DNA of 58,293 bases. Origin: an uncultured Phycisphaerales bacterium (GTDB lineage Bacteria; Planctomycetota; Phycisphaerae; Phycisphaerales; UBA1924). Of the stretch, positions 9,894-17,333 are shown piece after piece. Location: assembly GCA_937995595.1 (NCBI GenBank), contig CALKJW010000021.1, positions 1-58,293 on the forward strand. The letters are read 5' to 3'. Both the position numbers and the translations under genes were made by a program. The first letter of the stretch is position 1. The number at the start of each line of letters is the position of its first letter. Under the pieces are notes generated by a model. It did no database searches. It was not told the DNA's origin and worked only from the letters and a program-made list of their open reading frames with translations.

Positions 9894-10973
9894 TCAGCAG
9901 CCCGCAAAGAACCGCATCAGGAACGCGAACACGTCCTGCACGGTCAGCCCGGGAACGCCGTCGGCATCAGCCCGGGCATGTCCGGACATGAAGTCCGCGA
10001 TGTACGCAAACACGTCTTGAATGTTGACCACCCCGTCATCGTTCTGGTCCGCCGGGCAGCGGTCGCAGGGCGTCGTCGAGTACAGCCGCGGCGACAGGCC
10101 CGATTCGTGCCACGACAGCGCGCGGGGCGCGAAGTTCGGCGTCATGACCACGCCGATGACCCGCAACTGGCCGCTGCCGTCGGGGCATCGCGTCTCGGCC
10201 AGCACCGGCGCGCCCGAGTCGTGCAGGTTCGGCACCGCCCACCCCTGAAACGAATCGCCCTCGGGCCCGCCGCCCGAGCGCACGCACTGCACGCACGGCG
10301 AGAACACGCACTCGTTGATCGCCAGCATGGCCCCCTGCGGGCCGCTCGACAGCGTGCCCGCCGCCCACCGCAAACGCCACGGGTCGCCGCCGCCCAGGCA
10401 CTCGCCCGCAAAGCCCCACCCCGCGACGACGATCGGGTCGCTCGGGCTCGCCGCGCGCCGGTACTCGACGCTGATGGGCTCGACGTGGAACGGCTCCGCG
10501 GCAAGCGTGCACACGGCCAGGTCGGCGTTGCCCGCGCGCGCCCACGACGTCACCCGGATCTCCTGGTAGTTCTGCGAGCACCCGCCGCCGGGGAACGAGT
10601 TGGTCACCGCCCCGTTGGCCCCGCGCCTGAACCGCACCCAGAAGTCCCGCTCACCCGGCGGCCACTCGGTCCCGTCGGGTCGCAGCAGGCAATGCGAAGC
10701 CGTGATCACGAGGTTGTCGGCCACCAGCGTGCACGTCCCGACCACGTAGCCCGCGCACCCCGGCTGGCCGGGGAGCGACGCGACCAGCACGCCCACCGCG
10801 TCGAACCGGTGATCGTCGTGCGGCGCCTCTTCACCGTTGACAATGGCCAGCGACCGCGCAGGAGACACGCTGAAAAACGCCGCGGCCAGCAGCAGACGAA
10901 CCACCCAACACCACGCGGCACGGGCGGGACGACGCCCTCCGGAGCGGTCAATGCGTTGCGAGAGGGGGCACAT
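9894..10973 (-). CDS. Secreted trypsin-like serine protease with a C-terminal dockerin-like repeat
   Basis: A 359-residue S1-family protease. ATG 10973 places a hydrophobic export signal (about residues 21-42) before IVNGEE, which resembles the mature N-terminus of trypsins. Catalytic residues are His94 (TASHC), Asp151 (NADLAV) and Ser253 (HDSGAP, in place of GDSGGP). The last ~50 residues carry two dockerin-like calcium-loop units, DQNDDGVVNIQDVFAYI and a second ending FAFLMRFFAGC. Terminal units of this kind, ending in Gly-Cys, are common on exported proteins of Phycisphaerae and probably serve surface attachment or sorting. Numerous cysteine pairs suggest disulfides. The second loop (ADADGVPGLTVQD) keeps the pattern. 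The substrate is unknown. Confidence 0.85.
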   Translation of the reverse strand: MCPLSQRIDRSGGRRPARAAWCWVVRLLLAAAFFSVSPARSLAIVNGEEAPHDDHRFDAVGVLVASLPGQPGCAGYVVGTCTLVADNLVITASHCLLRPDGTEWPPGERDFWVRFRRGANGAVTNSFPGGGCSQNYQEIRVTSWARAGNADLAVCTLAAEPFHVEPISVEYRRAASPSDPIVVAGWGFAGECLGGGDPWRLRWAAGTLSSGPQGAMLAINECVFSPCVQCVRSGGGPEGDSFQGWAVPNLHDSGAPVLAETRCPDGSGQLRVIGVVMTPNFAPRALSWHESGLSPRLYSTTPCDRCPADQNDDGVVNIQDVFAYIADFMSGHARADADGVPGLTVQDVFAFLMRFFAGC

Positions 10974-11232
10974 GAGACGGACACACCCGGGAACGGCGCC
11001 GCTCCTGCGCCCGTGGACACCACCCGGCTCTTCCTGGGGCCGGTTGAACTCCCCCCACCCGACCTCCGACTGCGACTCGGAACGCGTGGAAACGCTGCGC
11101 CCAAGGGGCGATAGAGTGCCGCCGCGGCGAACGCCCGCGACACTTTTACCGGAAGGTCCGCGGTAATGCAAGACCCACACCGGTTATCGGGCATGACGCC
11201 TACCGCCCTTGCGCACGCCGCGACCGTGGCGA

Positions 11233-12512: not shown

Positions 12513-13451
12513 ATGAACGCACCGCTGCCCCTGTTGCTGGCGCTTCAGGACGGGACCGGCCCGAGCGCCGATCAGTCGCCGACCACCGACCAGGCGCCGA
12601 TCCTCGACGCGGTGTGGCTCGCCCACGTGAGCCGGCAGGTCGCGCTGGACTGGGGCCTGAAGGTGATCGGCGCGCTGCTGGTGCTGCTGATCACGTGGAT
12701 CTTCGCCGCCTGGGCCCGACGCCTGGTCTACCGCGCCATCAACCGCCCGCGATTCGACCAGACCTTCGTCCGGTTCCTCAGCAACCTGGCGCGCTGGATC
12801 GTGCTGGTCCTGGGCCTGGTCGCGTGCCTGGGCGTGTTCGGCATCAACACGACGAGCCTGGCGGCGATGGTCGGCGCCGCGGGCCTGGCCATCGGCCTGG
12901 CCGTGCAGGGCAGCCTCTCGAACCTCGCCGCGGGCATCATGCTGCTGGTCCTCCGGCCCTTCAAGGTCGGCGACGTCATCCAGGTCGGCGGGCACCTGGG
13001 CACCGTCGACGAGATCGAGTTGTTCAACGTCAAGATCGACACGCCCGACAACCGCCGGATCATCTACCCCAACAGCCAGGTCTTCGGCGCAATCATCGAG
13101 AACATCACGCACAACCCGCGCCGCCGCGCCGACGTCATGGTCGGCGTCGAGTACGCCGCCGACACCGCCCGCACGCGACAGGTGCTCGAGCGCGCCGTCG
13201 CCTCGACGCCCGGCGTGCTGACCGACCCCGCGCCCGCCGTGGTGCTGCTGGAACTCGGCGCATCGAGCGTCAACTGGCGCGTCAGCGGCTGGTGCAACAC
13301 CGCTGACTTCTGGCCCGTGCGTCAGGCCATCACCGAATCGGTGAAAAGGCACCTCGAAGAGGCCGGCCTCACCATCCCGTTCCCACAGATGGACGTCTGG
13401 ATGCGGAGCAGCGCAAGCGCGGCGAATCAGCGAACACTTACGAATGCCTAA
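12513..13451 (+). CDS. mscS: MscS-family small-conductance mechanosensitive channel
   Basis: A 312-residue inner-membrane channel that releases solutes under hypo-osmotic shock. Three membrane segments (about residues 46-66, 88-106 and 109-142) end in the pore-lining helix with AGLAIGLAVQGSLSNLAAG, the alternating Gly/Ala pattern typical of MscS. The cytoplasmic beta domain follows, beginning RPFKVGDVIQVGGHLGTVDEI and including the IIYPNSQVFGAII loop. The N-terminus (residues 1-30) is a hydrophilic extension after a short hydrophobic start. Length equals that of the simple E. coli-like members. It is divergent from the RibBA-like gene with 80 bases between starts. Confidence 0.9.
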   Translation: MNAPLPLLLALQDGTGPSADQSPTTDQAPILDAVWLAHVSRQVALDWGLKVIGALLVLLITWIFAAWARRLVYRAINRPRFDQTFVRFLSNLARWIVLVLGLVACLGVFGINTTSLAAMVGAAGLAIGLAVQGSLSNLAAGIMLLVLRPFKVGDVIQVGGHLGTVDEIELFNVKIDTPDNRRIIYPNSQVFGAIIENITHNPRRRADVMVGVEYAADTARTRQVLERAVASTPGVLTDPAPAVVLLELGASSVNWRVSGWCNTADFWPVRQAITESVKRHLEEAGLTIPFPQMDVWMRSSASAANQRTLTNA

Positions 13452-13473
13452 CGATTGTCGGACTGCTGCGCAC

Positions 13474-13502
13474 TTGCATGTTGCAATCGCCTTCTCTAAC
13501 AT
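13474..13502 (+). promoter_or_regulatory. Candidate promoter of the palindrome-controlled small gene
   Basis: TTGCAT (13474-13479), a 17-base spacer and TAACAT (13497-13502). The -35 hexamer overlaps a small inverted repeat, TTGCA-TGT-TGCAA (13474-13486). Transcription would begin near 13509, just before the two palindromes. Confidence 0.4.
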
Positions 13503-13519
13503 GCGGCCCGCAATCAGTC

Positions 13520-13553
13520 GCACAAATTTGTGCCACGTCGCACAAATTTGTGC
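13520..13553. promoter_or_regulatory. Two identical 14-bp palindromes in tandem, probable operator
   Basis: GCACAAATTTGTGC occurs at 13520-13533 and again at 13540-13553. Each copy is a perfect palindrome and the centres are 20 bases apart, about two helical turns, so bound dimers would lie on the same face of the DNA. The flanks match too: both copies are preceded by GTC and followed by a C. Placed between the candidate promoter and the start at 13597, they look like an operator. As the downstream gene encodes a DNA-binding-type protein, autoregulation is a natural guess. Confidence 0.7.
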
Positions 13554-13596
13554 CTGATACAGTCCGGCACATCACGAGAAGTCGAAAGGACAGATC

Positions 13597-14004
13597 ATGG
13601 CTCGCACCGCTTCGCTCGGAAACATGTCCGTCGCCGCGCTCCAGGCTGAGATCGAACGCCGGCAGCGCAACGTCGGAAAACTGATGCGCGAACGCAACCA
13701 ACTGCTCAAGAAACTCGGCCGCATCGACGCGGCGATCCGCAGCGCGGGCGGCACCGTCGCGGGCGGGCGCATCGCCTCGGTCTCCGGCCGTCGCCGCGCC
13801 AAGAACAAGATGAGCCTCGCCGAGGCGCTGCACGCGCTGCTCAAGGGCAAGACCATGTCCGTCACCGAGGCCGCGGTCAAGGTGCAGGAGGCCGGCTACA
13901 AGACGACCTCACCCAAGAACTTCCGCACCATGGTCAACCAGACGCTCATCAATCACAACTCCATGTTCAAGCGCGTCGGCCGCGGGCAGTACACCTCCAA
14001 GTAA
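13597..14004 (+). CDS. Small coiled-coil plus winged-helix-like protein, probable DNA-binding regulator
   Basis: A 135-residue basic protein that I cannot place in a named family. Residues about 8-48 form an amphipathic, charged helix (VAALQAEIERRQRNVGKLMR and following) that probably dimerises. A Gly/Arg/Lys-rich linker (about 50-72) follows. The C-terminal part (about 73-135) begins MSLAEALHALLKGKTMSVTE and runs as helix-helix-strand to the end GRGQYTSK, which suggests a small winged-helix fold. This is the plan of compact nucleoid-associated or repressor proteins. AAAGGA stands 11 bases before the ATG. It has its own promoter candidate, two palindromic operator-like sites and a terminator, so it is a single-gene unit. 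DNA binding is inference. Confidence 0.75.
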   Translation: MARTASLGNMSVAALQAEIERRQRNVGKLMRERNQLLKKLGRIDAAIRSAGGTVAGGRIASVSGRRRAKNKMSLAEALHALLKGKTMSVTEAAVKVQEAGYKTTSPKNFRTMVNQTLINHNSMFKRVGRGQYTSK

Positions 14005-14036
14005 TCGCCCGGCGCGTCCGGATCTGCAAAGAAACA

Positions 14037-14065
14037 AAGCCCCGGCTCGGCCGGGGCTTGTTTCA
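14037..14065 (+). terminator. Rho-independent terminator
   Basis: Ten-base arms (AAGCCCCGGC / GCCGGGGCTT, 14037-14046 and 14050-14059) with a 3-base loop, followed by GTTTCATATT. It ends the small regulator gene; the opposing lipoprotein gene stops 34 bases further on. Confidence 0.72.
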
Positions 14066-14098
14066 TATTGAACGTTTCCGACCCACCGGTCGCGCCGC

Positions 14099-14380
14099 TC
14101 ACGGACGGGGGATCGGCTCCCGCGCCAGCCGCGTCGGCCGGTCGAACAGGAACACCCGCCCCAGGTCCTGCCAGAACATCCGACCGTTCTCGTCAACGGT
14201 CACGACCATCGCGTTGTCCACGTCCTCGGGACGCTCGTGCAGCGTGTCGATGTTCGGCGTCGGGTCCGCCTTCACCTGCTCGTACCGCGAGGGCGTCGAC
14301 GAGCAGCCCGACAGGCCCGCCAAAACACTCGCGCCCGCCAAGGCTCCCAGCACTCCCGCGATCTGCTTGCTCGTCGGCAT
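14099..14380 (-). CDS. Small lipoprotein of unknown function
   Basis: A 93-residue lipoprotein. A signal sequence (MPTSKQIAGVLGALAG...) ends in the lipobox LSGC, so Cys26 should be acylated. The mature part of about 68 residues is hydrophilic, with MVVTVDENGRMFWQDL as its most structured stretch, and matches no family known to me. The ATG at 14380 has CAGGAG upstream; longer readings of this frame are not needed. It is divergent from the serine acetyltransferase gene, with 236 bases between, and converges on the small regulator. Confidence 0.75.
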   Translation of the reverse strand: MPTSKQIAGVLGALAGASVLAGLSGCSSTPSRYEQVKADPTPNIDTLHERPEDVDNAMVVTVDENGRMFWQDLGRVFLFDRPTRLAREPIPRP

Positions 14381-14616: not shown

Positions 14617-15690
14617 ATGGATGCGGACCTTTCTTCGGCTTCCACCCGCCTGGCGCGCTCAATCCAAGCCGTCGAACTGACCCGCCTGCGCGCCCGCCCC
14701 GGCGGCGCTGGGCCCGCCGACCCCGCCGGCGGCCTCCGCGCGGCCGACTTGGCACGCGTCCGCGACCTGGTCGACCTGCTCCGCCGCCTGATGTTCCCCG
14801 GCTTCTTCGACCCCGAGCCGATCCGCGAGAGCCAGCTCGACGCCCACGTGCACCGACTCGTCGATCAGGCCGCGGCGATCCTCCGCCGGGAGGTGCTCGC
14901 GCTGCTCCGCTACCCCCGCCGCGGCGGCGCAGACGCTTCCGCCGAGCCGCCCGCCGAGTTCGCCGACCGCGTCGTGCGCACGTTCCTCAACCGCCTCGTG
15001 CACGTGCGCGAGATGCTCGCGCTGGACGTGCAGGCCGCCTACGACGGCGACCCCGCCGCCGAGCACACCGACGAGATCATCCTCTGCTACCCCGGACTGG
15101 AGGCGATCTTCTCCCACCGCGTGGCGCACGAGTTGTACACGCTCGGCGTGCCCGTGCTGCCGCGGCTGATCGCCGAACTGGCCCACTCGCGCACCGGCAT
15201 CGACATCCACCCCGGCGCGCAGATCGGCGAGTCGTTCTTCATCGACCACGGCTCGGGAACGGTCATCGGCGAGACCAGCGTCATCGGACGCCTCGTCAAG
15301 ATCTACCAGGGCGTCACGCTCGGCGCGCGCTCCTTCCCCAAGGACGAACGCGGCCGCGCCATCCGGGGCATCAAGCGGCACCCAACCATCGGTGACCGCG
15401 TGAACATCTACGCCGGCGCGGTCATCCTCGGCGGCGACACCGTCATCGGCGACGACTGCGTCATCGCCGGCGGCGTGTTCGTCACCTCCTCGGTCCCGCC
15501 GGGGCACGTGGTGCAGCAGCCGCGCGCCGACCTCACGCTCCGGCCCAACGCCGCGGCCCGGCCGTCCGCCGCGCGGGGCGCTCCGCCCTCGGCGCGGCCC
15601 TCGCCCGCTCCCGCGCCGCCGCCGCACCCGCCGGCCGACGCCGCGCACGCCCCGAGCCTGAGTTGGCTCGGCGACGGCGCGGGCATCTGA
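14617..15690 (+). CDS. cysE: Serine O-acetyltransferase
   Basis: A 357-residue cytosolic enzyme making O-acetylserine for cysteine synthesis. The helical N-terminal domain (about residues 1-175) includes YPGLEAIFSHRVAHELY, and the left-handed beta-helix of hexapeptide repeats follows: GIDIHPGAQIGESFFIDHG, GTVIGETSVIGRLVKIYQG, then VNIYAGAVILGGDTVIGDDC and VPPGHVV. The catalytic His of IDHG is present. The last ~50 residues are a disordered Ala/Pro tail (APAPPPHPP), unusual for CysE. ATG 14617 is chosen because upstream sequence in this frame is low-quality; start certainty is moderate. The sigma-like gene begins 12 bases after its stop, so the two are probably cotranscribed. ATP sulfurylase at 27 kb belongs to the same sulfur pathway. 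Confidence 0.87.
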   Translation: MDADLSSASTRLARSIQAVELTRLRARPGGAGPADPAGGLRAADLARVRDLVDLLRRLMFPGFFDPEPIRESQLDAHVHRLVDQAAAILRREVLALLRYPRRGGADASAEPPAEFADRVVRTFLNRLVHVREMLALDVQAAYDGDPAAEHTDEIILCYPGLEAIFSHRVAHELYTLGVPVLPRLIAELAHSRTGIDIHPGAQIGESFFIDHGSGTVIGETSVIGRLVKIYQGVTLGARSFPKDERGRAIRGIKRHPTIGDRVNIYAGAVILGGDTVIGDDCVIAGGVFVTSSVPPGHVVQQPRADLTLRPNAAARPSAARGAPPSARPSPAPAPPPHPPADAAHAPSLSWLGDGAGI

Positions 15691-15701
15691 CGGACGCCGC
15701 C

Positions 15702-17333
15702 ATGCCACGCGCGCCGCAGATCCGCACGCCCGCGCTGGCCGACCTCGCGGCCCAGGCGCGCTTCCAGCCGCCCGAGGCCGCGCGCCGGCAGTTGCAGCGT
15801 GCCGAGGACCTGGTGCTCCAGCTCCTGCAGGAACCCGGCGACGCCGGGCGCGTCTGGCCGGTCGAGTGGGTCATCTTCCGCGTCACCGGCTACCGCCCCG
15901 ACCGCGCCACCGACGCGACCATCGGGCGCGACGACCTGCTGCACGACTTGGGCGGCCTGATCCACGCGCTCTCGCGCGCCTCGCGCACCACCGATGCGCA
16001 CCTGCTCGAAGCCGAGCCGGGCGCGTGGCTCACCACCGGGCAACTCTGCGCCCGCTGGCGCGTCAGCCGACGCACGCTCGAGCGCTACCGCCCGCTGGGC
16101 CTGATCGCGCGGCGCGTGCTGCCCGAGGCCCGCGCCGCCGGCCGGCGCGCGCCGGCCAGGTCGCTCTACCCGCTGCGCGCGGTCGAGGCCTTCGAGCTCG
16201 CCCGCGCGCCCAAACTGGCCGAGGCCGCGGCCTTCTCGCGCATCGACGCGCGGCTCGCCGCGCACCTGCACCGACGCGCCGCGCGATACCGCGCGCGCCT
16301 CGGCTGGTCGCTGGCGCGCTGCGTCGCGCGGCTCGCCAAGAGCTTCGCCCGTTCGCCCGGCGCGGTCCGGCGCGCTGTCCTCGCGCACGACGCGACGCTC
16401 CCGCGCCCGCTGTTCGCGACGCGACGATCGCGCCCGAGCCGCGCGACCTTCTACCGTCTGGCCGCGGGCCAGCGCGCAGCGCGCCTCCGCGCGCTGCGCC
16501 TGCCCGTACGCGCCGAAGGGCCCGCCGCGACGCCCGCGGCGCAATCAAGACTGCTCGCCGCGCAGGCCGTTGCCACCGGTCTGTCGCGCCCCCTGCCGAC
16601 GACCATCGCCGAACTCCTCGAGCAGGCCGCGCCGACCGAACCGCCGGCACAGTGGGAGCGCGCCGTCGCCGGCGCCTACGCCCTGCTGCGCGCGCACGCC
16701 GCCGCGGCCATCGCCGACCTGCCGCGCAGGTCGCCGCGCGTGCTGGGCGACAAGCCCGACGGCGAAGGCGGCATCGACTGGATCGAGACGCGCCTGCGCT
16801 GGGCCGCGCGACTCAAGGCCGAACTGGTGCGCGCGGGCCTCGGCCTTGCGCTGCGGACGGTCGAGAGCCGCGCCCACCGCTCGATCGCGGCCATCCCGCC
16901 CGCCCACGCCGCGGAACTCGCCGGCGCGCTGCTGGCGGCATTGGCCGACGCGGCGGACGTGTTCGACCCGTCCAAGGGCGGGCGCTTCGCCGCCCCCGCG
17001 GGCCTGTCGCTCAACCGCGCCGTCACACGGTGGCTCGAAGCCCACGCGGGCCACGCCGCGCCCGGGCGCGCCCTGCCGCGCCCCGACCCCGCGCACGTGC
17101 GCATCGACGACCCGTGGCCGACGCTCACGCCGTGGAACGCGTGGCTGGAAGTCCCGACCGCCGCGCGCGCAAGGATCGACACACTCCGCGGCGTCGAGCG
17201 CGACGTCCTGCTCGTGCGCATGGGGTGGGACGCCAGACCGCCGCGGACGGTCCTGCAGGCCGCGGCGGAACTGGGCGTCTCAACAATGCTGGTGCTGCGC
17301 GCCGAGAAGCGCGCGCTCCGCGGACTGATGTGA
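15702..17333 (+). CDS. Sigma-70-like protein with an extra N-terminal helix-turn-helix
   Basis: A 543-residue basic, Arg/Ala-rich protein. Three parts are visible. Residues about 109-140 (TTGQLCARWRVSRRTLERYR, then PLGLIARRVL) look like a MerR-type or phage-excisionase helix-turn-helix. Residues about 370-450 resemble sigma-70 region 2: LKAELVRAGLGLALRTVESR aligns with the region 2.1 core and FDPSKGGRFAAPAGLSLNRA with the FDP-KG-RFSTYA-WWIRQA block, but with the aromatic promoter-melting residues missing. Residues about 490-543 resemble region 4.2: LRGVERDVLLVRMGW, then AAAELGVSTMLVLRAEKRAL. A classical region 3 is not evident. It may be a divergent sigma factor or a sigma-derived DNA-binding regulator. 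It lies 12 bases after cysE. Confidence 0.68.
   Translation: MPRAPQIRTPALADLAAQARFQPPEAARRQLQRAEDLVLQLLQEPGDAGRVWPVEWVIFRVTGYRPDRATDATIGRDDLLHDLGGLIHALSRASRTTDAHLLEAEPGAWLTTGQLCARWRVSRRTLERYRPLGLIARRVLPEARAAGRRAPARSLYPLRAVEAFELARAPKLAEAAAFSRIDARLAAHLHRRAARYRARLGWSLARCVARLAKSFARSPGAVRRAVLAHDATLPRPLFATRRSRPSRATFYRLAAGQRAARLRALRLPVRAEGPAATPAAQSRLLAAQAVATGLSRPLPTTIAELLEQAAPTEPPAQWERAVAGAYALLRAHAAAAIADLPRRSPRVLGDKPDGEGGIDWIETRLRWAARLKAELVRAGLGLALRTVESRAHRSIAAIPPAHAAELAGALLAALADAADVFDPSKGGRFAAPAGLSLNRAVTRWLEAHAGHAAPGRALPRPDPAHVRIDDPWPTLTPWNAWLEVPTAARARIDTLRGVERDVLLVRMGWDARPPRTVLQAAAELGVSTMLVLRAEKRALRGLM

Follow-up and report, generated by a model that had tools for sequence, protein, structure and literature searches.

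In the genome of an uncultured Phycisphaerales bacterium, two identical 14-bp palindromes separate a conserved −10-like hexamer from the start codon (ATG) of a gene for a 135-residue protein, within the 58,293-bp stretch of DNA that we analyzed (the window; Table 1). The palindromes are instances of a wider motif, CACA-N4-TGTG with lineage-dependent flanks, which recurs in the family of this bacterium (f1) in pairs that are mostly spaced by about two, three or four helical turns. These data suggest an autoregulated winged-helix regulator or nucleoid protein, whose binding to the dyads is proposed here. We assign a probability of about 0.5 to autoregulation by a basic coiled-coil/winged-helix DNA-binding protein, probably a dimer, that keeps its own synthesis in check.

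Palindromes, hexamers and gene at the locus

The two identical palindromes with centers 20 bases apart that the original prediction described are found in the window, and the exact 14-mer is not common: this locus holds the only two copies of GCACAAATTTGTGC in the 3.1-Mb genome (G000). When up to three mismatches are allowed, the window contains two matches (the shuffle mean is 0.76, and 17 of 100 shuffles reach two). The palindrome count in the window is unremarkable; the distinctive point is the exactness of both copies. Further sites, also predicted, are present elsewhere in the genome, with eight at up to two mismatches (three for the reversed control) and nine of the form GCACA-N4-TGTGC. 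The sister species G001, from the same genus (g1), has 14 sites of this form, and the reversed control gives two in each genome.

In G001, two slightly changed dyads are located 19 bp apart at the equivalent place before the gene. Aligning the two genomes shows conservation at the dyads, at CTCTAACATGC and in the part of the leader close to the ribosome-binding site, with divergence in the stretches between. The proposed TTGCAT-N17-TAACAT promoter is supported by the positions of its hexamers and by the conservation of CTCTAACATGC, but TTGCAT (−35) is kept only in part in G001, and a strict sigma-70 consensus scan of 13400–14120 called no promoter. We infer promoters here and in genus g51 (see below) from conserved hexamers alone. 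The expected good terminator corresponds to a hairpin at 14037–14059, which has the form of a terminator on either strand and a weak T tail; the convergent gene may use it as well.

Table 1. Features of the locus (positions in the window)
Feature	Position	Strand	Basis or remark
Palindrome 1, GCACAAATTTGTGC, core CACA-N4-TGTG	13520–13533		GCACACTTTTGTGC at the equivalent place in G001
Palindrome 2, GCACAAATTTGTGC, 20 bp from palindrome 1	13540–13553		GCACAGATTTGTGC at the equivalent place in G001, where the two dyads are 19 bp apart
Probable promoter: TTGCAT (13474–13479), 17 bp, TAACAT (13497–13502)	13474–13502	+	Sequence
Likely ribosome-binding site AAAGGA	13585–13590	+	Sequence; GAAAGGA conserved in G001
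Gene of the 135-residue protein (long helix, basic linker, winged helix)	13597–14004	+	ATG at 13597, stop codon ends at 14004
Codons of the long N-terminal helix (residues 12–49), putative coiled coil	13630–13743	+	AlphaFold model
Codons of the winged helix (residues 74–134)	13816–13998	+	AlphaFold model; weak HARE-HTH match at residues 72–132
Terminator-like hairpin between convergent genes	14037–14059		Sequence
Convergent small lipoprotein-like gene ('lipoprotein' by eye), a conserved neighbor	14099–14380	−	Sequence and homologue loci

Two other frames of the window were noted. On the minus strand, 9894–11180 encodes a secreted-looking protein with a C-terminal QDVFAFLMRFFAGC, and a beta-propeller gene beside one of the arrays described below ends similarly (by eye); a long open reading frame at 15663–17333 is sigma-factor-like by eye.

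Phased arrays of CACA-N4-TGTG

The original prediction took the exact 14-mer as the motif, which has to be corrected to the wider CACA-N4-TGTG. The extended form TGCACA-N4-TGTGCA was considered as a family motif, but it is strong in G001 only (11 sites, with 0–3 in the other 129 genomes), and the looser core was therefore adopted. Pairs of this core 19–42 bp apart occur in 22 of the 130 f1 genomes, representing 15 of 74 genera, and the reversed control gives none. The spacing is 19–21, 30–32 or 41–42 bp in 37 of 42 pairs, where 14 would be expected from an even distribution, although the pairs are not independent, since those of one array overlap and sister species have loci in common. This spacing agrees with the predicted arrangement of sites side by side on one face of the DNA. 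Phased pairs, with about two, three or four turns between sites, are found in 17 of the 130 genomes and in 12 genera; five genomes (G036, G063, G071, G090 and G091) have pairs only at other, non-phased spacings.

In families f2 and f6, pairs are present in 4 of 182 genomes, compared with 22/130 in f1 (Fisher P = 4e-6), and phased pairs in 3/182 compared with 17/130 (P = 7e-5), with genomes that are not independent in either comparison. The pairs outside f1 comprise one among 51 genomes (spacing of 24 bp) and three among 131 genomes, all from one genus and with a spacing of 30 bp.

Many of the GCACA-N4-TGTGC sites of G000 and G001 are clustered, and two arrays of each genome illustrate the arrangement (gene names by eye). 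In G000, an mfd-like gene and a beta-propeller gene converge on a pair of sites 20 bp apart, and four core sites exactly 31 bp apart lie between a lipB-like and a membrane-protein gene. G001 has three sites with 31-bp spacing at the matching lipB-like place and, near a transposase-like gene, four sites (one with a core mismatch) at intervals of 20, 21 and 20 bp. Array dyads also occur in convergent intergenic DNA, and among the example loci 5 of 22 pairs are inside a called frame. At least four single sites (L112, L113, L114 and L117), which are inside called frames, are probably due to chance. Pfam searches with ten chosen proteins identified FGE-sulfatase proteins by a G085 array and by a G001 single site, secretins by a G048 array and by a G060 single site, and ArsR regulators near pairs in G026 and G001.

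Beside the 31-bp array, L118 (3172–4413) encodes a protein of membrane type that carries a prokaryotic YEATS domain; the lipoprotein-like gene after it has no Pfam match. Loci L119, L120 and L121 contain an apparent dispersed repeat of G001, with one TGCACAAAACTGTGCA dyad and GC-rich inverted repeats, which holds three of the single sites of that genome. The genome-wide excess of CACA-N4-TGTG was dropped as a test of co-occurrence because it is confounded by coding sequence; all five sites fetched from G036 (of 66) and four of five from G018 (of 48) are inside called frames, some of them short.

The protein, its homologues and their upstream regions

The predicted coiled-coil/winged-helix protein is recovered in part in the AlphaFold model (built with 66 sequences; mean pLDDT 84.5, pTM 0.50): a helix spans residues 12–49, the basic linker after it has low confidence, and residues 74–134 make up a winged helix (pLDDT of 90–97 for the block of residues 71–135), and the long helix may form the coiled coil. 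The calculated pI is 11.7. The third-helix residues R110, V113 and N114 are invariant among the 66 aligned proteins; T111 and R129 are at least 90% conserved, and N108 is common. T111, R129 and N108 are only candidate counterparts of N154, T156 and R174 of Rok. Of the 34 proteins of alignment A1, the two from g1 alone have a one-residue insertion, K107 (codon 13915–13917), which gives SPKNFRT instead of SPNFRT immediately ahead of the third-helix residues.

Foldseek returned no match at E 0.001. Its leaders, at E 0.06–0.07, are a forkhead domain followed in second and third place by the Rok DNA-binding domain (5zuz, 0.059; 5zux, 0.072). VIA-align gave Z scores of 8.0 at most, with many winged-helix proteins scoring alike, and its matches are not specific because forkhead, linker-histone and Z-alpha domains are all prominent. 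The best Pfam match of the window protein is HARE-HTH (PF05066; residues 72–132), with 19.8 bits, below the cut-off of 25.9, and 6 of the 66 aligned proteins match this domain at E 0.01. The extra helix of HARE-HTH is absent from the model, in which helices occupy residues 74–82, 89–98 and 106–119 and there is none at 99–105. WH_Rok is matched by 3 of the 66 proteins, the window protein not among them. PDB sequence searches gave no convincing relative, and the window protein had no NCBIfam match; among the 66 proteins, the commonest weak NCBIfam match is an archaeal SMC-related model (17 proteins).

The original prediction described a single-gene unit; the gene is in fact found across the family, often downstream of parB. 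Homologues are present in 108 of 120 family genomes and in 14 of 80 other genomes of the order. A profile search also recovered a weak partial match in G009 and, in nine of ten additional family genomes, a match that in one case is a fragment. At 56 of the 80 homologue loci kept (L174–L253, of 166), parB is located upstream on the same strand, with a gap of 59–1918 bp (median about 240 bp, up to 602 bp at 55 of the 56); ParB was confirmed by Pfam at one locus. Downstream, an opposite-strand gene for a small lipoprotein-like product is present at 32 of the 80 loci, and clpB at 22. In the window genome, the gene just upstream is a different one (MscS-like by eye), and the convergent small gene is kept.

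Upstream of homologues, a perfect core occurs within 300 bp for 17 of 159 distinct proteins (19 sites, control 1), and the other 142 have none in this interval. A home-made gene caller gave only a rough intergenic rate, about 118 per Mb, with three of its nine intergenic sites upstream of homologues, and assigned only one site to the gene's own upstream stretch, which was shortened by spurious frames; fixed distances were therefore used instead. Around 122 distinct loci, 12 sites lie in the 150 bp upstream of the gene, three at 150–300 bp upstream and four in the 150 bp downstream, with none inside the gene, at 300–600 bp upstream or at 150–600 bp downstream, and four in the 325 kb beyond 600 bp. 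The corresponding densities are 656 per Mb in the upstream 150 bp, 220 per Mb in the downstream 150 bp and 12 per Mb beyond 600 bp. Without g1, the upstream excess has P = 0.049 against the downstream rate and P = 0.0016 against the rough intergenic rate. With two mismatches allowed in the pair, a phased pair is found in 7 of 89 upstream regions (control 0).

A conserved operator-like dyad precedes the gene in the two g1 species and in four species of genus g51. In all four g51 genomes sampled, CCACA-N4-TGTGGATT is located upstream of the gene, exactly 20 bp (from its TGTGG end) before TATGTT. The g51 dyad stands upstream of this promoter-like hexamer, whereas the g1 dyads stand downstream of theirs, a difference that would be compatible with a repressor site. 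The dyads before the gene share the flank of most other array dyads in those genomes, GC..GC in g1 and CC..GG in g51 (7 of 9 sites seen).

The distribution of pairs within f1 does not follow that of the homologue: they are present in 21 of 118 genomes with it and in 1 of 12 without it (P = 0.69), and phased pairs in 16 of 118 and 1 of 12 (P = 1.0). In genus g158 (family f2), a 30-bp pair is present, and the homologue was not found in its three genomes. At two of the three loci (L270 and L271, near 1501–1542), the genes flanking this pair were inspected: one encodes a response regulator that is NtrC-like by eye, the other is a second receiver-like gene.

Candidate binders and comparison with known systems

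The autoregulation that was originally predicted is partly supported by sites before the homologue's gene in other genera, and the protein itself would be the binder. The N-terminal helix would hold the dimer together, so that each CACA half of a dyad would receive one winged helix. Two such dimers, adjacent on the same face of the DNA and immediately beyond the −10 element, would block transcription. Elsewhere, the 135-residue protein may also act at phased arrays, which in some relatives are near secretion and exported-protein genes. We infer dimerization, dyad binding, repression and the identity of the binder. Autoregulation is favored because the own-gene dyads are conserved in two genera, their flank is common to most other array sites of those genomes, and the arrays are nearly restricted to the family. 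We rate it no higher than about even, and regard a different binder as its main competitor, because the pairs do not track the gene, the g158 array occurs without a found homologue, and, once g1 is left out, the upstream excess over the downstream flank falls to P = 0.049.

That the dyads are bound by another family-specific regulator (ArsR-type, Fis-type/enhancer-binding or unknown), with the winged-helix gene merely one of its targets, is a real possibility, though short of an even chance. In addition to the lack of tracking within f1, it can draw on ArsR-family genes near two pairs (L163 in G026, about 160 bp downstream; L160 in G001, about 400 bp), on the g158 pair just downstream of the NtrC-like response-regulator gene and on five Fis-type HTH_8 matches in G000. 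However, the flanks of the G001 pair near the ArsR gene differ from the TGCACA..TGTGCA of the other arrays of that genome, and none of the HTH_8 matches, five each in G000 and G001, is within 20 kb of an array. Sites acting as sigma-54 enhancers are unsupported, as sigma-54-like promoters near array and site loci show no excess (one match in 23,180 bp, 3.0 expected).

A related alternative, which overlaps the previous one and which we consider unlikely, is that the protein is of the Rok/H-NS-like nucleoid type and binds with little sequence specificity, while some other repressor owns the dyads. The order of long helix, basic linker and winged helix, the high pI, the places of Rok in Foldseek, the three WH_Rok matches and the frequent parB neighbor all fit such a protein. 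Against it, the Foldseek E values are only 0.06–0.07 and led by a forkhead domain, VIA-align scores many winged-helix proteins alike, and the window protein itself has no WH_Rok match.

RNA hairpins in the 5′ leader are a very improbable explanation: GCACA-N4-TGTGC could fold there into a short stem with a four-base loop, but the helical spacing of the sites argues against this, as do their occurrence between convergent genes and the place of the g51 dyad ahead of its promoter-like hexamer, and no Rfam family was found in 13300–14200. Chance or dispersed repeats, least probable of all, would account for the three G001 single sites in the apparent repeat, but not for an array control of 0 in 130 genomes or for dyads conserved while the intervening stretches diverged.

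A bolder version of the autoregulated winged-helix protein, which we regard as doubtful and offer tentatively, is a new nucleoid-type protein of Phycisphaerales, linked to parB, which would differ from H-NS and Rok in being directed to a specific dyad. Its dimers would nucleate on CACA-N4-TGTG at two, three or four turns, and it would control secretion and exported-protein genes and its own level, with the flanking base drifting between genera. If the protein owns the motif, its regulon could be read from sequence, and a frequent parB neighbor would be tied to gene control. Even if another regulator binds, a family-wide operator motif in whole-turn spacing provides a concrete and testable handle. 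Among the matches listed in literature searches (HARE-HTH, planctomycete nucleoid proteins, Rok, and parB with winged helix), titles and the starts of abstracts contained no such regulator for the order, and neither the protein nor the motif.

Autoregulated dimeric winged-helix repressors are typically encoded by a single gene, with palindromic sites near the promoter at whole-turn spacing. The locus resembles them in its single gene and in palindromic sites at whole-turn spacing near a putative promoter, but differs in its C-terminal winged helix on a long helix, the disordered linker and the frequent parB neighbor. NtrC-type enhancer arrays have TGCAC-type half-sites, which are similar to those of G001, as is the spacing of about three turns; however, the dyad spacing differs, and sigma-54-like promoters are not in excess. 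The NrdR, LexA and DnaA boxes were also compared with the dyad. In the available text on HARE-HTH, the domain is described with an extra helix inserted in the HTH motif (PMC11037411), which the model of the window protein lacks, and the score is below the Pfam cut-off. For Rok, the xenogeneic silencer of Bacillus subtilis, the available parts of two reports describe minor-groove contact through an N-T-R set (N154, T156 and R174) and a preference for AACTA/TACTA (PMC6212790, PMC6936261). Here, the dyad associated with the gene is CACA-N4-TGTG, and the sequence similarity of its protein to Rok is weak. The window protein is only a candidate member of the Rok family, and the resemblance is one of plan, in that both proteins are basic, with a possible match between their winged-helix folds, and combine an N-terminal helix (where Rok has its self-association region), a linker and a C-terminal winged helix.
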